Source: a virus
DNA length: 44,412 bases
Virus record (IMG/VR): IMGVR_UViG_3300021963_000225
Span: 1 to 44,412 of that record
Direction: 5' to 3' (one strand)
Position numbers and translations under genes: made by a program. Numbering within the stretch: the first letter of the stretch is position 1; each line of letters starts with the position of its first letter. Positions 5,078 through 44,357 of the stretch are shown here, in pieces. The notes beneath the pieces were generated by a model that worked only from the letters and a program-made list of their open reading frames with translations, was not told where the DNA came from and did no database searches.

Positions 5078-5360
5078 CGGATGGGGCGAGGTCGGCGAAG
5101 AACTTCTTGCGGTCCGGGAGTTGATTGGCGGTGGCGTTGGCCAGGCGGGTCAGCTGCAGAAAACGCGCCCGGTCGGCATCGCTTAGTTCGCTCACCAGCT
5201 CCTCAATGGCCTGCATCGCCTGTTCGAGTTGCGTGATCTCCTCTCGGAGTTCCAGCAAGCAGGGATACTCCGGGGTGACGATGAAGCGCGGCGAGTTCTG
5301 GGCGATTTCGACTGCTTTCTCGATCTCTGCCCAGCGGTCGTCGGGGCTGGGGCTACTCAT
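5049..5360 (-). CDS. Hypothetical coiled-coil protein, 103 aa
   Basis: ATG 5360 overlaps the stop of the upstream gene. The central part is a likely coiled coil (CLLELREEITQLEQAMQAIE, ELVSELSDADRARFLQLTRL). It is acidic and soluble, with no recognised domain. It is one of a run of tightly overlapping small early genes, probably co-transcribed with the exonuclease upstream. Confidence 0.6.
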   Translation of the reverse strand: MSSPSPDDRWAEIEKAVEIAQNSPRFIVTPEYPCLLELREEITQLEQAMQAIEELVSELSDADRARFLQLTRLANATANQLPDRKKFFADLAPSDARISAPMP

Positions 5361-5698
5361 GGCAGTTGCTCCATTGCGAGGCGGATGGTCTCCAAGTCCT
5401 GGCGCTGCTCTCGCATGTCATTGGCGCCGGTGGCAACAGCGTGGAGCGCATCTAGCGCTTGCGTCTTCAAGCTCGGCGGTTTGGGGCGGCGGGCCGCGCG
5501 GAGTTGATCAGCGTCCCAAGGTGTCCACTTGGGGATCCACTCACAGCACGCCTCCAGCTCCTGGTCGGCGCCCCATTGGGCAGCGCGGGTGGCGATGTCA
5601 GTGGTTACCTCGCCCGGCGCAATGACTGCGCCGTAGAACTCAGCCATCCACTGCGTCACCAGCTCCAGCGGCGGGGTAATTGGGTGTTCTTGTGTCAC
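5357..5698 (-). CDS. Conserved cyanophage-type early protein (ITPP...VxQW)
   Basis: A 113-residue protein starting MTQEHPITPPLELVTQWMAE. The ITPPxELVxQW opening followed by a helical, Trp-rich middle (ACCEWIPKWTPWDADQLRAA) is a pattern I recall from many small cyanophage early proteins of unknown function. It overlaps both neighbours by 4 bases. The family resemblance is from memory. Confidence 0.65.
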   Translation of the reverse strand: MTQEHPITPPLELVTQWMAEFYGAVIAPGEVTTDIATRAAQWGADQELEACCEWIPKWTPWDADQLRAARRPKPPSLKTQALDALHAVATGANDMREQRQDLETIRLAMEQLP

Positions 5699-5958: not shown

Positions 5959-6680
5959 TGCTCAAATCCGTGTTGGGCCGTGTAGTACGTGTTGGCGCGG
6001 GAGATGAACCTGCGGCCGTAGTCGCGCAGTTCGTCGCCCGTTAGCTCCCAGATGTCAGGGAAGTCGCCGTGCGGGCGCGCGATCACCAACAACGCGCGCT
6101 CCGGTTTGACGCCGTAGACGTAGTCAATCGCCGTGGCGTAGGCGCCCAGCTGGCAGCAGTAGTCCTCCACCAGCGCTGAATCGCGCTTGTTCTTCGACGT
6201 TTTCCAATCCAACAGCGTCAGCAGGTTGCTGGCGTCCTCGGGGGTGAGGTCGTCGCGCTGCGTGTAGTTGCTGTAGCCCAGGGCGTCGAATTGGCCGGCG
6301 AAGCGAGTGGGGTGGTACACCGCGCACTCCTGCGCCACCAGCTGGACCCAGTGCTGCTCCAGGAACGGGCGGATGTTGCGCCAGTACGCCCCAAAGGCGA
6401 AGTGCTTGGGGTTGGGCAGTGGGTCGCCCGCTTGGTGCGCCAGCAGCCAGTTCTCGATTTGCTCGTGCGTCCAGGTGCCCCGGGCTTTGGCAGCGTCGCT
6501 AATCGCGGCGGCGTCCGGGCGCTTCAGCCATTGCTCCAGGCGCTTTTTGCTGGTGCCCGTCTTGCCCAGGATCGACGTAACGCTGTCGAGGCGGCCAACC
6601 GGGCTGGTGTAGCCGCTCTTGTCCGCTAGTCGAGTAACGACGCCCCGCGGCTTGGGTAGAGACGTGAGGCGTTCGGACAT
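5955..6680 (-). CDS. PD-(D/E)XK exonuclease (Cas4/RecB/MGME1-like)
   Basis: A 241-residue protein with the motif order of the superfamily: RGTWTHEQIENWL (His at about 72), FAGQFDAL (Asp 132), LLDWKTSK (Asp 158, Lys 160) and the QLGAYATAI helix (Gln about 177). These correspond to motifs I, II (GxxD), III (DxK) and the QxxxY motif. The length fits single-domain phage exonucleases used in recombination or host DNA degradation. It heads the run 6680 to 3551 of overlapping early genes and lies in the same block as the probable ssDNA-binding protein and the primase-helicase. Confidence 0.8.
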   Translation of the reverse strand: MSERLTSLPKPRGVVTRLADKSGYTSPVGRLDSVTSILGKTGTSKKRLEQWLKRPDAAAISDAAKARGTWTHEQIENWLLAHQAGDPLPNPKHFAFGAYWRNIRPFLEQHWVQLVAQECAVYHPTRFAGQFDALGYSNYTQRDDLTPEDASNLLTLLDWKTSKNKRDSALVEDYCCQLGAYATAIDYVYGVKPERALLVIARPHGDFPDIWELTGDELRDYGRRFISRANTYYTAQHGFEQ

Positions 6681-7836: not shown

Positions 7837-8052
7837 TTAGCGGGGGCGATTCAGGTCGTCAAGCATTTCTGTTGCCGCTTGCCGGGCCATACGCTCCACC
7901 ACCTCGCTGATGCTCACACCCTCTCTGTCCGCAAGGGTTCTCAGGATTTCGTGGCAGGTGTCCGTCATGCTCAGACTGCGGCACCGCTTCATCTCGCCCC
8001 AGTGCGTCAGACGCTGGACTGCAGGCCGGGGCTGGATGATCGGTTCGGGCAC
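7837..8052 (-). CDS. Ribbon-helix-helix (CopG-like) regulator, 71 aa
   Basis: GTG 8052 start. Residues about 20-62 fit a ribbon-helix-helix fold: strand KRCRSLSMT, helix TCHEILRTLADREGVS, helix ISEVVERMARQAATEML. It is followed by a short tail. It lies just downstream of the HTH regulator 8080-8778 and probably shares its transcript. It may bind the operator-like sites at 8845-9104, but this is inference. Confidence 0.65.
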   Translation of the reverse strand: MPEPIIQPRPAVQRLTHWGEMKRCRSLSMTDTCHEILRTLADREGVSISEVVERMARQAATEMLDDLNRPR

Positions 8053-8076: not shown

Positions 8077-8091
8077 AGTCTACCTACCTAG
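8077..8091. repeat. 15-mer AGTCTACCTACCTAG, copy 1
   Basis: Identical to 37575-37589, which precedes the sigma-like gene at 37015-37569. Here it overlaps the stop codon of 8080-8778. The last ten bases of the window (TAGGTAGACT) are the reverse complement of its first ten. Confidence 0.8.
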
Positions 8092-8778
8092 GTTCGCCTG
8101 CAGGTGCTCCCAGAGAGCCGTGCCGCTGAGACCCACAAGGCGCCCGATAGCGTCAAGGTCGTGGATCAGGCGGTCGGCGGGGACGGCGCGGTTCAGGAGC
8201 AGGGGCTCGATGGTGGGGCATTCGTAGACGAGCTCGGGCAGCTTTTCGTACCAGTCGATGTTGTGCTTGCCGTAGTGGGCGCGCAGGAAGGCGCCCAGGG
8301 TGCGGCTGGCGGCGGGGGCGTCGGCTTCGTCGAGCTCACGGCGTTCGCGCGCTGGCAGCTCCCGCAGGCCGCAGAACGCCTCAAACATGCCCACTGGGCC
8401 CAGGGCGATGCCGTCGCGGTCGAGCAGGGGGATCGTGTGCTCCCAGTCCGCCTTGAGGTAGTGGGGGAGCTTGGGTGGGTAGCCGATGTCGGGCACCTGC
8501 TCGATGAGGTCTTCTGGGTGGCCGATGCTGCGGGCTAGGGCGGTGTTGAAGTAGCCCAGCGCCAGCAGCGTCTTGGGGGCGGGTTCGATGAGCTTGCCGG
8601 TGCGGAAGCCGCCGATGGTGCTGCTGTGGATCGCCTTGGTGCCCAGGTAGGCCGCGGCCAGCTTCATGAACTGCGTCTGGGTCATCTGGCTGCTCAGCGC
8701 CCGAAACGCAGGGGGGAATTGCATGGCGCCCTGTTCGAGTGCGGTGAGTAGTGGCGCGACCTTGGTGGAGTCCGTCAT
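8080..8778 (-). CDS. HTH (XRE/Cro-type) regulator, 232 aa
   Basis: The N-terminal part contains an HTH-like segment (MTQTQFMKLAAAYLGTKAIH, then STIGGFRTGKLIEPAPKTL), matching the order of phage Cro/CI-type DNA-binding domains: a QxxxxKLA helix, a recognition helix, then a following loop. The C-terminal 140 residues are helical with no recognised domain. The gene starts just left of a 260-bp array of CGGACA sites, so autoregulation and control of the primase-helicase are plausible. I see no peptidase motif of a LexA/CI type. Confidence 0.6.
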   Translation of the reverse strand: MTDSTKVAPLLTALEQGAMQFPPAFRALSSQMTQTQFMKLAAAYLGTKAIHSSTIGGFRTGKLIEPAPKTLLALGYFNTALARSIGHPEDLIEQVPDIGYPPKLPHYLKADWEHTIPLLDRDGIALGPVGMFEAFCGLRELPARERRELDEADAPAASRTLGAFLRAHYGKHNIDWYEKLPELVYECPTIEPLLLNRAVPADRLIHDLDAIGRLVGLSGTALWEHLQANLGR

Positions 8779-8844: not shown

Positions 8845-9104
8845 CCCTTTAATACTCCCCCGGTTTGCCTGTCCGTATCTCCCCAAACCCCTTGGGGGGG
8901 AAGGTATTTGAATCGGACAGTTGAATCGGCATTTAATCGGACACTGTCCGCTCAATAAGAGAGCTTATTGAGAATCAATCGGACATGTCCGGTTAAACGC
9001 CGGTTGAATTGTCCGGTTCACTCCCGCTGCAGCGCAGTGGATCTCGGGTGATACGGACAGAAAAAGGGGGAGAGTATTAAGGGGCAACTCTCCCCAGGTG
9101 TCCG
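8845..9104. promoter_or_regulatory. Operator/origin-like array of CGGACA sites
   Basis: Between the regulator and the primase-helicase gene, CGGACA (either strand) occurs at 8870-8875, 8914-8919, 8938-8943/8945-8950 (palindrome CGGACAcTGTCCG), 8980-8991 (perfect CGGACATGTCCG), 9010-9015, 9054-9059 and 9099-9104. One more site lies at 11366-11371 before the primase start. An imperfect inverted repeat of about 40 bases (8845-8884 and 9045-9084) flanks the array. Each arm has TAATACTC-type sequence and CTGTCCGTATC. It may be an operator, a replication origin with iterons, or both. Confidence 0.65.
8951..8972. promoter_or_regulatory. Perfect 9-bp stem hairpin in the operator array
   Basis: CTCAATAAG-AGAG-CTTATTGAG is a perfect inverted repeat with a 4-base loop, AT-rich, at the centre of the CGGACA array. 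It could be an origin hairpin or a terminator for the primase-helicase transcript, though it lacks a T-tract. Confidence 0.5.
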
Positions 9105-9106
9105 GT

Positions 9107-11353
9107 TCAGATGTAGTTGATGCCATCTCCCCGGCTTGTGATCATCTCCTGGGCGGACTGGCGGACGCGCTGGCGGGGGCGGTAGTGCATGATCAGCCGA
9201 CCGTTTGCCCGTTCGCTGCGCCTGTTCTCAGCCTCCAACACCGTGCCCACCAGCCGGTCGAGGTAGCGGCGCAGGTTGCGCTCGTTGAACTGCAGGTCCA
9301 GCAGCTGCATCCACTCGCTGGGGATGCGCCACTCGTCATCGGTTACGCGGCGGAACGACTGCGAAAGCACCTCCATCGGGGAAGCCTCCCCTTGGTTGGG
9401 GTCCATCCATTGCCAGACGCCGGTGTAGCCGTCGCGGGTGATCTGCAGCTTGCGGCCTGCATATCCGCCCCGGCTCTTCTCCACCAGCAGGTGGCGGGTC
9501 TTGTTGAACGAGGGCGCGGTTTTCTTCTGCTTGATGAGTTCAGGGTCGTAGTACACCCACAGCTCCTCGCAGGCGGCTTTGATCTGCTCAGTGCCGCTGA
9601 AGCGCAGGGGCTCGTCCCGGCTGGTGTGGTGGAGGATCAGGAACGCGCACTTGGGCCAGCTCGTGCCGTTGTGCCGCACGAACATGCGGATCGGGTCGGC
9701 ATAAGCGGGGTCGCCCACCTTCACGCCGGTGACCGCCATCGAGGTGAGGCAGTCGCAGATCACGAGGTCCGGCTTGAAGTCGCTCAGCGTCTGGACGATG
9801 GGGATCATGTCGTCGAAGTTGGCGCCGGAGTGAATCAGCAGGCGCTCCTGGCACGCCTTGTCCTCAATGCCCTCCAGCACCAGATCGCGCACCATGTCCT
9901 CATCACTGCAGTCGCTGGTGAGCACCAGCACTCGACCGGGGCCGTTAATGCCGTGGCGGGTGTTGCCGATGTCGACCGGGGCGCCGTTGAGCACCCGCGA
10001 CGCCAGGAAGCACGCCAAGGTCGTTTTGCCGCTGTGAGAGCCGCCGGCTACGACGTGGACGCGCCGGGGCAGCAGGCCGTCCAGCACGTCTGTACTCACA
10101 TTGTCCGTACGCCTCGTCTTGGTGATGTCGGCCATGGAGCGTGGGGCGCCAAGGCTCACAACACCCAGCCATTGCTCCAGGCGCAGGCGGTAAAGATCTG
10201 CTGGGCTTACGCCGTACTCGCGGTAGGCGCGCCCAGTCCACGCAGCCAACGCCGCGTGGTCCGCGCTCACTTCGTTCATCTTGTTGAGCACCTTCTTCAG
10301 CCCGTCGACGTGGAGCTGGGTTTGCTCCAGCGGGGGCAGGGCCCAGGTCGGCCATTGGAAACCGTTGTTGCGGGCAAAGTGGAATAGTGAGCCGATGCGG
10401 GCGCGCTGGTCCTCGGCTACACGGCTACTGGCGAGCGATGCGATGGTCTTCTCGGCGGTGGTGTTGCCCCAGTCGTTGCGGGTGTCCCACTCGCTGGCTT
10501 CGATGATGTCCTGGGCGAGCTGGGGGCCGAACTCGTCGATCAGTCCGCAGATGATGCGGCGCACCTTTTCGTACGTGCCGCTGCCGCGCCCGTCGCGGTT
10601 GGGGCAGAACTCCAGCGCCTCCCTCGCTAACTGAATCTTTTCGTGGGTGCGCAGGCGCTCCCATGGGGTCGCGTCGTCTTCGCCTGAGCGGCGGCGTTCC
10701 TCGGGGCTGTCGGGCACCTGCTCGTCGAACTTGGCGATGATGCCCAGCAGCAACCACTCCGGTGCGTCGCCCCACTTCACCTCGGTGGGTGCGCTGCCGT
10801 TTAGCCAGCGGTAGTACAGCGGCGTTTGGTGCGAGCTTTGGGGGTGGTCGCCGCAGATCACCGCGTGGCGGCCGGTGCCAGTGCCGTTCATCCAGATCGC
10901 TTCAAGCACCACCTTGTCGTCGACTCGCCAGGAGGCGCTGCGGTTTTCCAGCTGGGGCCACCAGTGGGGCGGAACGCGCAGGAAGACCTTGCCGCGGCCT
11001 TTCTTGCCGCTTTCGTTGCAGATCGTTGGGCGCAGTTCGCTGGGGTTGCGGTGGAAGTGGTCGCGGAAGGCGCGGACCGCTTGCGAGCCGGTGCCGTCGA
11101 AGTCGATCACCAGCAGGCCGCCGGATTCCGGGCCGGTGATGGCGCCAACGCCGATCAGCTTGTTCGACTTCCAGCGCTCATACGGCGTTGGGGAGGAGTT
11201 GATGCGCAGCACATCGTCGAGCGTGCGGCCCGAACCCTTGGTGTTCCAACCCTCCTCAAAACAGACCTTGGAGTCGTCATTGCCGCCGGTGAGGGCATAA
11301 CGCCATTGCGGCGGAAGGCCCTCTAGGAGCGCAGTTTGGTCGTCGCGGAGCAT
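9107..11353 (-). CDS. Bifunctional primase (PrimPol)-helicase
   Basis: A 748-residue protein from ATG 11353. The N-terminal third matches archaeo-eukaryotic-type prophage primases: LIGVGAITGPESGG followed by LVIDFDGTG with the catalytic Asp pair (about residues 84 and 86), then a His-containing strand (TGRHAVICGDH). The C-terminal half has a RecA/AAA_25-type ATPase: VHVVAGGSHSGKTTLACFLA (Walker A, about residue 434) and LVICDCLTSM (Walker B, about 529). Such fusions prime and unwind at phage replication forks. It lies beside the CGGACA array and opposite the DNA polymerase operon. The family call is firm; substrate details are inferred. Confidence 0.85.
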   Translation of the reverse strand: MLRDDQTALLEGLPPQWRYALTGGNDDSKVCFEEGWNTKGSGRTLDDVLRINSSPTPYERWKSNKLIGVGAITGPESGGLLVIDFDGTGSQAVRAFRDHFHRNPSELRPTICNESGKKGRGKVFLRVPPHWWPQLENRSASWRVDDKVVLEAIWMNGTGTGRHAVICGDHPQSSHQTPLYYRWLNGSAPTEVKWGDAPEWLLLGIIAKFDEQVPDSPEERRRSGEDDATPWERLRTHEKIQLAREALEFCPNRDGRGSGTYEKVRRIICGLIDEFGPQLAQDIIEASEWDTRNDWGNTTAEKTIASLASSRVAEDQRARIGSLFHFARNNGFQWPTWALPPLEQTQLHVDGLKKVLNKMNEVSADHAALAAWTGRAYREYGVSPADLYRLRLEQWLGVVSLGAPRSMADITKTRRTDNVSTDVLDGLLPRRVHVVAGGSHSGKTTLACFLASRVLNGAPVDIGNTRHGINGPGRVLVLTSDCSDEDMVRDLVLEGIEDKACQERLLIHSGANFDDMIPIVQTLSDFKPDLVICDCLTSMAVTGVKVGDPAYADPIRMFVRHNGTSWPKCAFLILHHTSRDEPLRFSGTEQIKAACEELWVYYDPELIKQKKTAPSFNKTRHLLVEKSRGGYAGRKLQITRDGYTGVWQWMDPNQGEASPMEVLSQSFRRVTDDEWRIPSEWMQLLDLQFNERNLRRYLDRLVGTVLEAENRRSERANGRLIMHYRPRQRVRQSAQEMITSRGDGINYI

Positions 11354-11438
11354 GAACTAAGGAATCGGACAGGCGGAAAGTAGCGCGACTTGACCGGTTC
11401 CGGTAGCCTTTGCGCACCCCTACCCAAAAAGGTGCAAC

Positions 11439-11627
11439 GTGGATCTTCCAGAGGGCGGCCTATTGCCGCATGAGAAACGTGAGCTGATTGGAGACATCCA
11501 GGTTGATACCTTCCGGCACATGAAAGTTGAGGAGGTTCGGTGGGTCACCAGCTGGGCGTTGACCTTGGCCGCGGCCTCTGATCAAACCGTTGTGCGCGTG
11601 TGGAGCGAGATTCATGGCGGACGTTGA
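11439..11627 (+). CDS. Small hypothetical protein preceding the polymerase, 62 aa
   Basis: GTG 11439 start. It overlaps the polymerase ATG (11614) by 14 bases. It is an acidic soluble protein (LPHEKRELIGDIQVDTFRHM, EEVRWVTSWALTLAAASDQT) with no recognised domain. It is first in the plus-strand replication operon, divergent from the primase-helicase across about 85 bases that include a CGGACA site. Confidence 0.5.
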   Translation: MDLPEGGLLPHEKRELIGDIQVDTFRHMKVEEVRWVTSWALTLAAASDQTVVRVWSEIHGGR

Positions 11628-13431
11628 TCAGGCGCTTCTGGCCGACCTGGAGGGGTTCGGTAGCGCGTTTGCGCTCGACATGGAGACGGCACTGGTGCCC
11701 CTGTGCTGGGAAGGTAGGCAGCAGCAGCGCCTGCTCCAGCTGCACAACGACACCTACAGCCAGTGGTATGACCTGGCGATGTGGGGCGAGCCGCAGTGGG
11801 AGGCGTTGCGGGTGTTTCTTGAGAACACGGCGCTGGAGGTGTACGGGCACAACCTCGCCTTCGACCTCAAGTGCTTGCTGGCGTCTGGCGTTGAGGTCAA
11901 GGGGCGCCTGTACGACACGATGATCGCCTCGCGCCTGATCCATCAGGGCGTGGCCAAGGTCAGCCACTCGCTGGCGGATGTGGTGCGCCGGGAGCTGGGG
12001 AAGGTCATTGATAAGTCGCTGCAGTCGCAGGACTGGATGAACGCCCGGCTGACCGAGGCGGATCTTGCCTACGCGATGGGCGACGTGAAGATGACGTGGG
12101 ATGCCGCCCACACCCTGCACGCGCAGATCTTTGAGCAGGGGCTGCTGCACACCTATCGGCTGGAGACGGCGCTGATTCCGGTGGTGGCGTCCATGGAGCT
12201 CAAAGGGATGTACGTCGACACCGAGCAGCTGCGCTCGGCGCGGGAGTTTTACAGCTCCAGCCGCAATGAGGGGGAGGCGTTTTATGTGCAGCTGCTGGAT
12301 GAGCAGCTCAAGGCGGCCGGGCATGAGGGGCTGCCCCGGCTGGCGTCAGGCGAGTTCAATCTCAACGCCAAGGCGACGGGCAGGGTGCGCGAGGGCACCA
12401 AGGTTCCCGCTGGCTTCAACATGGGCTCGCCCCGGCAGCACGCGGCGTACTGGGGTGTGCTTGGCATTGAGCCCAAGGACGAAAAGGGCAAGATTTCGCT
12501 CGATAAGAAGAACCTTGCGACCTACCGCCATCACGAGATTGTTCGCACCTACGAGTTTTACAAGAAGGCGGAGAAGCGGGCGACGATGGCGGAGAAGTTG
12601 CTGGAGCATGTGAAGGCTGATGGGCGCATTCATGCGCAGTTCATGCCCCTGCAAACGGCGACGGGGCGCTGGTCGTGCGCTAACCCCAACCTTCAGCAGA
12701 TTCCGCGAGATCCAGAGTTTCGCAACGCATTTACTGCGCCGGAGGGTTGTGTGCTGGTGCAGGCGGATTACAGCGCGATGGAGCTGCGCTACCTAGCGGC
12801 AGTTGCCAAGTGCGGGCCCATGCTGGATGCGTTCAATAGCGGGGCGGATCTGCACACTCGCACGGCTGCGTTGATGTACGGCATCAAGGACGAGGATGTC
12901 GATAAGGCGCAGAGAACTGCGGCCAAAGCGTGTAACTTTTCCCTCGCATATGCCAGTGCTCCCAAGGGGTTGCAGTCGTACTTCGCGACCCTGGGCCTCT
13001 ACATCGACATGAAGCAGGCGCGGGAGTTTCATGCGATGTGGCATAACGCCTACCCCGAAGTAGGTGTTTGGCATGACTGGTGCCAGAAGCAGGTCAACGC
13101 TGGTGTGCCGGTGGCGACTGCGATTGGGAGGCGTCGTAAGCTATTTGGCGAGGAGAACCGCGTTCAGATCTTCGCCAATAACACGATCCAGGGCGGTTGC
13201 GCTGACATCATGAAGGCAGCGATGGTCGAGATCTTTCATAAGCTCCCCGCCCATGCCCGGTTGGTGGCCTGTATTCACGATGAGGTTTTATGCGAAACGT
13301 GCATAGACGTGGCTGAGGAGGTCTTGGGGCTCGTTATTGGCGAGATGCAGGATGCTGCTATACCCATGGTCGGTACTGCAGTCACGATGAAGGCAGAGGG
13401 AGGCATTGTTCGTAGCTGGGGTGAGAAATGA
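11614..13431 (+). CDS. polA: Family A DNA polymerase with 3'-5' exonuclease
   Basis: A 605-residue protein from ATG 11614, with GGAG about 11 bases upstream. The exonuclease domain has LDMETA (Asp 22, Glu 24), YGHNLAFDLK (Asp 84) and YAMGDVKMTWD. The polymerase domain has ATGRWSCANPNLQQIPRD, motif A QADYSAMELR, motif B KACNFSLAYASAPKGL and motif C CIHDEVLCE. The length matches phage polymerases without a 5' nuclease. The position equivalent to E. coli Pol I residue 762 is Phe. The usual Gly residues of motif B (NFGxxYG) are Ser and Ala here, which is unusual. The stop overlaps a downstream ATG (ATGA). Confidence 0.93.
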   Translation: MADVDQALLADLEGFGSAFALDMETALVPLCWEGRQQQRLLQLHNDTYSQWYDLAMWGEPQWEALRVFLENTALEVYGHNLAFDLKCLLASGVEVKGRLYDTMIASRLIHQGVAKVSHSLADVVRRELGKVIDKSLQSQDWMNARLTEADLAYAMGDVKMTWDAAHTLHAQIFEQGLLHTYRLETALIPVVASMELKGMYVDTEQLRSAREFYSSSRNEGEAFYVQLLDEQLKAAGHEGLPRLASGEFNLNAKATGRVREGTKVPAGFNMGSPRQHAAYWGVLGIEPKDEKGKISLDKKNLATYRHHEIVRTYEFYKKAEKRATMAEKLLEHVKADGRIHAQFMPLQTATGRWSCANPNLQQIPRDPEFRNAFTAPEGCVLVQADYSAMELRYLAAVAKCGPMLDAFNSGADLHTRTAALMYGIKDEDVDKAQRTAAKACNFSLAYASAPKGLQSYFATLGLYIDMKQAREFHAMWHNAYPEVGVWHDWCQKQVNAGVPVATAIGRRRKLFGEENRVQIFANNTIQGGCADIMKAAMVEIFHKLPAHARLVACIHDEVLCETCIDVAEEVLGLVIGEMQDAAIPMVGTAVTMKAEGGIVRSWGEK

Positions 13432-13667
13432 ACGATGCTCGGGTCCGCGAACTGCTGCAGACTGCTGCACTTCGCTACATCAGAGGCGAAGCACCACGTT
13501 CACCACTTCCTGGCGATCGACCAGCACCTGCTCCACCAGAGCCAGGTACAGCTCCCGGAGTTCTTCGTCGTCCAGCTGCGACCACACGGCCGGGTCGGCG
13601 AATACGCCGAGCAGCTCGGGATCGGGGCCAACCTGCTGCTCTAGCGCTAGCAAGCGCTCGCGCTTGA
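13428..13667 (+). pseudogene. Possible interrupted or truncated reading frame after polA
   Basis: An ATG at 13428 overlaps the polymerase stop (ATGA), the coupling style used throughout this operon. The first 17 codons (MNDARVRELLQTAAL) look like a normal helical start. From 13480 the frame runs antisense through the recombinase gene and becomes Arg/Pro/Ala-rich shadow sequence. This fits a small gene whose 3' part was displaced when the recombinase cassette arrived, but a chance ATG cannot be excluded. Confidence 0.25.
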
Positions 13668-14775
13668 TCGCAATCGCTGGGGCTAGGTCCGGGTCGCCCA
13701 GCGCCTCCAACTCCGCGATCTTGGCTTTGAGCGCCAGGATCTCGGGGTTTTCTGTTGTCGCCAGCTGCGCTAACTGCGTGTTGCGCTGCGAAAGCGCGGC
13801 GTTAATTTGTTCGCGTACCTTCTGTTCGCGGGTGCTCTTGTAACGCTGGGGGCACTCGCGGCTCTTGCAAATAACGCTGGCGATGGTGCGGCTGCCGGCA
13901 TAGGTCATCTTGCGGTTGCAGCCGGCGCAGACGCAGAGGCCCGTCAGAAGGCGCGGTCTCACCTGTGCGCTATGGCCCCAGCGGCGGCGATTGTCATGCA
14001 ACTGACGTTCCATGATCAGAAAGTTGCTGTGGGACAGCAGGGTGGGATGAGTCTCCCAAATGATCTCTTTATATGTGTTGTCGTTTTGCTTGAGATAGCC
14101 CAAGCCACCCCGAAGCACCGGGTTGAGAAGCCACGCTTTGACGGCGCGGCAGGATCCCAAAGGAATGGTGCCCAGTCCTGCTCTGTGCCACCGGTCTAAG
14201 GCGGTATTCATGCGCCAGTCGCAGGCTTTGCATAACGCAAGGAACCGGGCGGCACGCGGGAACTCGTCAGGGTCTGGCTCTAAGGCGCTGCGGTCTGCGT
14301 TCAGCCGGTAGCCCCAGGCCACCTTCCCGCGCAGGGGCCGGGCCCGCTTGCGTCCTTCGCTGTAGCCGGCGCGTACACGCATCGACAGCATCCGGCTTTC
14401 CATTTCTGCCATGGAGGTGGCCATGCGAGAGAGGAGGAAGCCCTGCGGGGTTTCGGAGTCGACCGTGCCGCCATCCAGGCAGTGGATGCGCACCCCGCGC
14501 TTGGCGGCAACGGCGATCAGTGCATCGGTGGCCGCGGCATCCCGACCCAGGCGGTCGATCCGGGTACAGACCACCTCTTGGACTTGGCGGGTGTCGATGA
14601 GGTGCAGGAGCTCCAGGTAGCCGGGGCGGTCCTGGGAGAGCCCGCTCTCCACGTCCTCAATGATGCGGTCCACGCCTGCGCCGAGGATGCGGGAGCGCTG
14701 GTTTTGCAGGGCGCTGAGCTGCTCACTCGTGTCGGTGGACACGCGCAAGTAGCCGATGCGCACTTCTTGTCCCAT
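13480..14775 (-). CDS. Large serine recombinase (integrase/XisF-type)
   Basis: A 431-residue protein taken from ATG 14775 (MGQEVRIGYLRVSTDTSEQ); the frame is open upstream but only as low-quality sequence. The N-terminal resolvase domain has the catalytic Ser (YLRVSTD) and the CTRIDRLGRDAAATDAL motif. It is followed by a Recombinase domain (KVAWGYRLN), a zinc ribbon (CVCAGCNRKM...CKSRECP), a coiled coil and a C-terminal helix. This is the layout of phage integrases and cyanobacterial element excisases such as XisF. It is the only minus-strand gene within the plus-strand replication operon. It suggests lysogenic ability or a mobile cassette. I could not find an att core. Confidence 0.88.
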   Translation of the reverse strand: MGQEVRIGYLRVSTDTSEQLSALQNQRSRILGAGVDRIIEDVESGLSQDRPGYLELLHLIDTRQVQEVVCTRIDRLGRDAAATDALIAVAAKRGVRIHCLDGGTVDSETPQGFLLSRMATSMAEMESRMLSMRVRAGYSEGRKRARPLRGKVAWGYRLNADRSALEPDPDEFPRAARFLALCKACDWRMNTALDRWHRAGLGTIPLGSCRAVKAWLLNPVLRGGLGYLKQNDNTYKEIIWETHPTLLSHSNFLIMERQLHDNRRRWGHSAQVRPRLLTGLCVCAGCNRKMTYAGSRTIASVICKSRECPQRYKSTREQKVREQINAALSQRNTQLAQLATTENPEILALKAKIAELEALGDPDLAPAIAIKRERLLALEQQVGPDPELLGVFADPAVWSQLDDEELRELYLALVEQVLVDRQEVVNVVLRL

Positions 14776-14795
14776 TGGACTAACGCTATGCGGGG

Positions 14796-14823
14796 TTGAC
14801 TTCCTGTGGGGAAGAGATACTCT
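14796..14823 (+). promoter_or_regulatory. Candidate sigma-70 promoter restarting the plus operon
   Basis: TTGACT (14796-14801), a 16-base spacer and TACTCT (14818-14823) lie between the recombinase start and GTG 14848. An inverted repeat CCTGTccatACAGG (14827-14840) follows, about where transcription would begin. It could drive thyX and the sigma factor independently of the polymerase. Confidence 0.4.
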
Positions 14824-14847
14824 CTGCCTGTCCATACAGGAACACCC

Positions 14848-15072
14848 GTGACTTCCCTTGCGCCACGGCGCATCTCGGCTGTGGCCGAAGATTGTGTGAC
14901 GCACACTGCAGAGCTCCTGCAGCTGCTTAACCGCCTCTCTGACGCGGAAGCGGAGCTGAATGAGGACGAGCCTCGTTACCAAGAGCTGGTGACGGCGCTG
15001 TTCGCGCTTAAGCACGCCATCCAAGGCATCAAGACCGTCGCCGCCCTCGAGGCGGGGAGGTACGGCTTGTGA
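14848..15072 (+). CDS. Hypothetical coiled-coil protein, 74 aa
   Basis: The start chosen is GTG 14848 (VTSLAPRRISAVAEDCV), downstream of the candidate promoter; upstream residues in frame lack protein-like composition. Most of the protein is one amphipathic helix (TAELLQLLNRLSDAEAELNE, YQELVTALFALKHAIQGI). It overlaps the DUF3310 gene by GTGA. No family is recognised. Confidence 0.55.
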   Translation: MTSLAPRRISAVAEDCVTHTAELLQLLNRLSDAEAELNEDEPRYQELVTALFALKHAIQGIKTVAALEAGRYGL

Positions 15073-15664: not shown

Positions 15665-16003
15665 GTGTTGTGCCCCGCTTGTACCGGCAAATACAGCCGG
15701 CCCAGCAAAACCTTCCGCGACGCCCCCGACTCATTCCTGCGCTTTCGTGACTGCAAACACTGCGGTCACCGCTGGTGGACGATTGAAGTCCTTGCGCCGA
15801 AAGACGCGATCCAGTGGATGGCGCGGGATCAGCCGGTGCGGCGCCCCAATTACCAACGAATCCGCTTCTCCAACAATGAAAGTAACTCTGGTGCATCGAA
15901 CCGATGGCGCCGAGGCGCTTACGGCCTACATGGCCCGAGTGAGCAATCCAAACAATCAGGGCAACAACGAGACGGCTCCGAAGCTGATCAAGTACCTGAT
16001 TGA
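15665..16003 (+). CDS. Zinc-ribbon protein with possible read-through tail
   Basis: GTG 15665 start: LCPAC (residues 3-6), then FRDCKHCGHRWWTIEV with the second CxxC, and RPNYQRIRF. This matches the order seen in the protein at 4817-5077 and in the zinc ribbon of NrdR-type regulators. The convincing part ends near 15880. The frame then runs on for about 128 bases inside thyX with low-complexity Ser/Gln/Arg-rich sequence, suggesting that the original stop was lost or that the true end differs. Confidence 0.6.
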   Translation: MLCPACTGKYSRPSKTFRDAPDSFLRFRDCKHCGHRWWTIEVLAPKDAIQWMARDQPVRRPNYQRIRFSNNESNSGASNRWRRGAYGLHGPSEQSKQSGQQRDGSEADQVPD

Positions 16004-44166: not shown

Positions 44167-44357
44167 GGTGGTACGACCCCCCTTAGCGGCCTTTAGGTGG
44201 GGGTGGGGCGCGCGTGAGAGCGCGGCGCCGGGGCGTGGGTGGCGTGTCCAGCGCTGCGGTGCGCAATCGCCGGGATCCGTTGCGGCGCAGCGTGTCCTGT
44301 CCTGCGTAACTGCCACTGCAGCAGGTACGCTGGACACAGTGTGAAGAGTTATCAACG
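44167..44357. repeat. Right copy of imperfect terminal direct repeat
   Basis: Aligns base for base with 1-190 except about 10 substitutions and one inserted G. The internal inverted repeat GTGTCCAGCG (44244-44253)/CGCTGGACAC (44328-44337) is perfect in this copy. The differing positions are scattered, not end-clustered. Confidence 0.9.

Follow-up and report, generated by a model that had tools for sequence, protein, structure and literature searches.

What is the function of the densely repeated CGGACA hexamers that lie between the 3′ end of a primase-helicase gene (9107–11353, minus strand) and the start of a regulator gene (8080–8778, minus strand) in an uncultivated phage? The sequence is IMG/VR record IMGVR_UViG_3300021963_000225, positions 1–44,412, and this whole 44,412-nt stretch is referred to here as the window. 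The original prediction took the array for a switch operator, a replication origin, or both. Comparison of related genomes strongly favours the origin and speaks against the operator, because the regulator stays constant while the sites change. The array is very probably the replication origin of the phage, recognized by the C-terminal winged helix of the primase-helicase, with domain and array together forming one specificity cassette that is exchanged between phages.

Inverted repeats downstream of the primase-helicase gene

All eight hexamers previously counted in about 240 bp are located inside 8845–9084. From left to right, the array consists of an outer iteron GATACGGACA (8870–8875, minus strand), the iteron GAATCGGACA (8914–8919, plus strand), an iteron pair with a 1-bp spacer, CGGACA-C-TGTCCG (8938–8950, hexamers starting at 8938 on the plus and 8945 on the minus strand), a central AT-rich hairpin CTCAATAAG-AGAG-CTTATTGAG (8951–8972), a pair without spacer, CGGACATGTCCG (8980–8991, hexamers starting at 8980 on the plus and 8986 on the minus strand), the iteron GAACCGGACA (9010–9015, minus strand) and an outer right iteron, again GATACGGACA (9054–9059, plus strand). 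A ninth copy, GAACCGGACA (9099–9104, minus strand), follows right after the primase stop codon, outside the symmetric region. Both palindromes and the 9-bp hairpin are present just as they had been described; in the relatives the CTCAATAAG half of the hairpin is kept and the opposite half pairs with it via G.T wobble. Nine copies in 260 bp correspond to P ∼ 7e-15 against the frequency elsewhere in the genome. When the 28 CGGACA copies of the genome were placed at random, a stretch of that length never received more than six in 20,000 trials, and no hexamer is equally dense in any other 260-bp stretch of the window.

The inverted repeat noted at the edges of the array exists, but its arms, given as about 40 bases, had been drawn too small, as the dyad symmetry covers the whole of 8845–9084. 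This imperfect 240-bp dyad, the putative replication origin, is centred on 8964.5 and has 76 matches among its 120 arm positions, compared with a mean of 31 (sd 4.8, maximum 50) in 5,000 shuffles and 56 at the second-best centre in the whole window. Folding of the 240-nt single strand gives just one long hairpin (−71 kcal/mol, z −11.8), and the symmetry is visible in the relatives too. The right arm carries a conserved hairpin-like element, GATCCACTGCGCTGCAGCG (9025–9043, minus strand), whose left-arm counterpart, CCCCTTGGGGGGG (8888–8900, plus strand), was read by eye. A search of the array region against Rfam gave no match, and no terminators were found there.

The outward TATTAA boxes proved to be real, each edge of the dyad bearing GGGGGAG-GTATTAA-GGG pointing outward. 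The left box (8849–8854, minus strand) faces the regulator gene and the right one (9075–9080, plus strand) is antisense to the primase-helicase gene; boxes at both edges are conserved in most relatives. A sigma-70 factor encoded by the phage (window 16702–17715; regions 1.2, 2, 3 and 4) might recognize unusual promoters such as these.

Away from the array, the CGGACA reported at 11366 was confirmed 13 bases ahead of the primase ATG; this single iteron, AATCGGACA (11366–11371, plus strand), is a candidate autoregulatory site. Its repeat type equals that of the array in the window and in the relatives L001 and L002, matches by half in L003 and L004 and is degenerate in L007. The TGTCC half-sites noted in the terminal repeats are indeed in excess (four and three copies, as against ∼ 0.35 expected per 200 bp), but they are not iteron-like: the final G is missing and the flanks fail to track the repeat type of the genome, so they were rejected as further iterons. 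The window ends themselves form a near-repeat (41–190 versus 44207–44357, 94% identical), across which contigs G4–G6 continue with one copy, and the window probably represents a nearly complete genome, either terminally redundant or circular, whose assembly drew on slightly different strains. A 19-bp element, GATCC(A/G)(C/T)TGCG(G/C)(T/C)GCAGCG, is common to the terminal regions (107–125 and 44274–44292, both plus strand) and the right arm of the dyad (9025–9043, minus strand) and is conserved in relatives. The oriented contigs G4 (at 15901) and G6 (at 10181) have seven CATTCA in 260 bp, the second-densest hexamer cluster there; this cluster was not seen in the window.

Covariation of the repeats with a predicted C-terminal winged helix

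Relatives were taken from IMG/VR scans and range in primase identity from 97% to ∼ 40%. The order of primase-helicase gene, intergenic repeats and regulator gene is kept in the relatives examined, where the contig reaches that far. A serine recombinase (integrase-type) gene at 13480–15024 of the window suggests a temperate phage; no prophage relatives were found in 84,980 prokaryote genomes. These phages probably infect cyanobacteria, judging from a distant similarity to phages of Synechococcus.

The primase-helicase (748 aa) comprises a primase-like N-terminal part, an AAA_25 helicase and a C-terminal winged helix. Pfam finds AAA_25 in all 13 family members examined, and none of them has a DUF927 or Primase_Cterm/D5_N helicase domain at E up to 1; AAA_25 is the only helicase type reported by Pfam, the full-length AlphaFold model being too poor in the primase and helicase parts to judge their fold, SF3 or otherwise. 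The N-terminal part is likely to be a primase, judging from one PHROG match (DNA primase, E 1.1e-9) and distant similarity to annotated phage primases; no credible sequence relatives of the protein were found in the PDB. The C-terminal domain (aa 655–748; 9110–9391, minus strand) is predicted by AlphaFold to be a winged helix (mean pLDDT 87), with helices followed by two hairpin-joined strands. Foldseek gave no match to it below E 0.001, and a second structural look turned up winged-helix regulators such as ArsR, MarR and PadR types (Z up to 7.8), generic matches without a specific relative that fix only the fold class.

Among the closest genomes the primase-helicase is 95–97% identical overall, yet in the five closest 13 of the 53 variable columns fall inside one 20-residue stretch near the C-terminus (P 1.4e-11). 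In the AlphaFold model this hypervariable segment (aa 708–722; 9188–9232, minus strand) forms the wing; the expected recognition helix is helix 3 (aa 691–701, NERNLRRYLDR; 9251–9283, minus strand), which is conserved. The repeats of the genomes nearest to the window keep the CGGACA core, and the adjacent 2–4 bases vary between genomes and agree within each, the concerted change covering nearly all copies within a genome, as expected from a sequence-specific binding protein with shifting specificity. The flank is AAT or AAC in the window, where the wing reads SERANGRLI; ACA in L001, L002 and the more distant L007, with the wing PNARV-NKTV; and CT in L003 and L004, with PSPIV-NRPC. It is AGG in L035 and L037 and GTT in L009, and the repeat of L036, ATACCGGCA, is unrelated to CGGACA. 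The wing of L007 matches those of L001 and L002 although the protein is otherwise 84% identical; between L001 and L007 the N-terminal part is 84%, the wing 80% and the array 64% identical. With distance in the rest of the protein controlled for, repeat-flank distance correlates with distance in helix 3 plus wing (partial Mantel r 0.68, permutation p 1.5e-4, n = 10), a result from some ten metagenome-assembled genomes and a test that is liberal.

Substitutions in helix 3 accompany changes of the core. Proteins with RYLDQ in helix 3 go with GGGAC(A/G) repeats, a pattern first seen in L034 and L043 and matched by L059, L060 and L064, which were fetched later; those with RHLDQ (L061–L063) go with GCGGCA repeats, and in L036 helix 3 and core both differ. 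The rule linking helix 3 to the core is not strict, since L034 holds both CGGACA and GGGACA.

A natural exchange is seen between L035 and L036. Their flanking sequences agree closely, with 98.7% identity across 7,992 bp to one side and 96.7% across 4,893 bp to the other, 12.9 kb together. Between these flanks lies a divergent block of ∼ 630 bp (nt 1953–2579 from the primase start, mostly 31–63% identical per 75 columns) that consists of the C-terminal ∼ 100 residues and the entire intergenic array and ends near the regulator start; its left edge is the start of the C-terminal domain, and the repeats of the two genomes differ within it. Both contigs are metagenomic and so may be chimeric assemblies, which is argued against by the intact reading frame and by a second example: L003 is nearer to the window than to L004 across most of the surrounding 9.6 kb, but nearer to L004 in the block of C-terminal domain and array. 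No further clean cassette swap was found in a second clade (L059–L065). Elsewhere in the primase gene, at window positions 10077–10176 (∼ aa 411–420), L003 is 94% identical to L004 and 81% to the window, possibly another recombination tract. That tail and repeats change together and were swapped as one block suggests that the primase-helicase tail recognizes the array.

This bears on the reading of the array as an operator or lysis–lysogeny switch, to which the 8080–8778 regulator would bind and thereby control outward TATTAA promoters. The array does lie just ahead of the regulator gene, both of its edges keep a conserved box and the phage carries a serine integrase; however, between the window and L003 the regulator is 98% identical and its helix-turn-helix residues are unchanged, despite different repeats, and L035 and L036 have exchanged arrays with the regulator gene still ∼ 99% identical. 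A scan of the boxes and the array region for sigma-70 promoters found no match. We consider this reading very unlikely. The 71-aa product of 7837–8052, also proposed as a binder, is 100% identical in L003 and the window, so that both candidates, at 98–100% identity between genomes with differing repeat specificity, had to be abandoned. The protein that does covary with the repeats, through its C-terminal winged helix, is the primase-helicase, which had not been named. No relatives of the regulator were found among isolated phages.

A putative replication origin

We propose that the C-terminal winged helix docks the primase-helicase on the inverted iterons, where the recognition helix would read the CGGACA core and the wing the 2–4 bases beside it. 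The enzyme would assemble symmetrically on the dyad, its helicase opening the DNA and its primase part starting synthesis, with the phage DNA polymerase A (11590–13431) taking over extension. The dyad suggests two facing enzyme rings and replication probably in both directions; the hairpin-like elements of the arms (9025–9043 and ∼ 8888–8900) and the central hairpin are candidate opening or priming sites. The enzyme probably also controls its own gene through the iteron 13 bases ahead of the primase start, a role consistent with the partial tracking of repeat type by this site.

Some observations weigh against this origin model. GC skew, suggested as a check, has no turning point at 8.9 kb. 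The arrays of the second clade (L043, L059–L065) are looser, and in L054, at ∼ 42% primase identity, the gene order persists but the gap after position 6292 shows no clear iterons. Adjacency, moreover, would let a single recombination tract transfer domain and array together even if they were functionally unrelated; that L001 and L007 share wings despite arrays of only 64% identity argues against a mere joint tract.

The primase-helicase could also bind the iterons for transcription regulation only, the true origin lying elsewhere. The iteron ahead of the primase start, which partly tracks the repeat type, and the outward boxes, if they are promoters, would suit such a role. The array, however, lies downstream of the primase gene, not upstream, and is the densest short-repeat cluster and the sole strong large dyad in the window; this position is also where the origins of the SaPI and pRN1 initiators are found (PMC7581432, PMC4234260). 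Regulation alone seems to us no more probable than an operator. A site for partition or recombination that takes no part in initiation, and whose covariation with the primase C-terminus is hitch-hiking, would account for an array that adjoins the coding end of the C-terminal domain and for a dyad with a central hairpin that resembles recombination sites, but is scarcely credible given that the repeat type tracks the wing despite the divergence of array and remaining protein between L001 and L007, that variation is focused on the predicted wing, and that the left edge of the L035/L036 swap is the start of the C-terminal domain.

The origin model has a broader form, in which the cassette is portable, passing as a unit between phages that are nearly identical otherwise, endows populations with many mutually non-cross-reacting origins and follows a code of wing to flank and helix 3 to core; to this we give about an even chance.

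Comparison with known replication systems

The Rep protein of SaPI elements (staphylococcal pathogenicity islands) binds, through its C-terminal domain, iterons directly downstream of its own gene, and Cch2 of SCCmec is similar (PMC7581432). The phage locus resembles SaPI Rep-ori in that iterons immediately follow the initiator gene, and it may likewise use a C-terminal domain, here a predicted winged helix that covaries with the iterons. It differs in having an AAA_25 helicase in 13 of 13 members instead of DUF927 or Primase_Cterm, in belonging to a tailed phage that brings its own DNA polymerase A, and in having an array in the form of a 240-bp dyad.

The alpha protein of P4 has a primase of the TOPRIM type, and P4 replication needs a second iteron region, crr, besides ori. 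In the phage protein, by contrast, the helicase scores as AAA_25, and in the window no second, type-matched iteron cluster of the crr kind was found, only single outlying iterons. What is alike is the joining of functions: a single P4 alpha polypeptide contains primase, helicase and, at its C-terminus, a winged helix for binding the repeats of the origin (PMC4234260), and the phage protein likewise unites a primase (by PHROG similarity), a helicase and a predicted C-terminal winged helix. A primase-helicase with a C-terminal winged helix is likewise found in pRN1 orf904 and the BIP-1/BPP-1 proteins (PMC4234260). In pRN1 a stem-loop origin lies downstream of the primase-helicase gene (orf904), with a similar arrangement in phages such as BIP-1 (PMC4234260), and the 240-nt hairpin is also a large stem-loop just downstream of a replication gene. 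Unlike pRN1, which has no iterons and an SF3 helicase, the phage has a stem-loop made of inverted iterons.

Among isolated phages, a distant primase gene (28% identity over part) occurs in Synechococcus phage S-LBS1, where dense AGGTTAGGCA and AGGTTGGGCA repeats in both orientations (5106–5511) come directly after the primase-polymerase gene; the succession of primase gene and dense array is the same, whereas the repeat differs. S-LBS1 has no match to the profile of the C-terminal domain of the window phage, and its genome paper mentions neither origin nor repeats. Its array includes CTGCAGTGGATT, related to the 19-bp element described above. In the short gaps after the primase-helicase genes of Vibrio phage D529 and Yersinia phage P744 no repeat was found.

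Lambdoid phages also encode an initiator, the O protein, with type-specific iterons at ori, although there the gene for the initiator, which is no primase-helicase, itself contains the iterons (PMC7466680). PLE satellites facing an origin-directed ICP1 nuclease swap their replication modules (PMC8263062), so that in PLE RepA/ori, as here, modules of initiator and iteron origin are exchanged or restructured between related elements. For PLE the helper-phage nuclease has been shown to select for exchange, whereas no such selecting agent is known for the present cassette. The AAA_25 helicase, the combination of iterons with a 240-bp dyad and the clear protein–DNA covariation set the phage locus apart from these known systems.

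If the origin model is true, a replication origin and its recognizer would have been located in uncultivated, probably cyanobacterial phages, and these phages would offer a natural series of matched protein–DNA pairs, including the near-perfect L035/L036 swap, for decoding origin specificity. Diversified origins within one phage population would raise the question of the selecting force, for which competition among phages that infect the same cell, satellites exploiting the origin, and origin-directed nucleases as in ICP1 and PLE are possible candidates.
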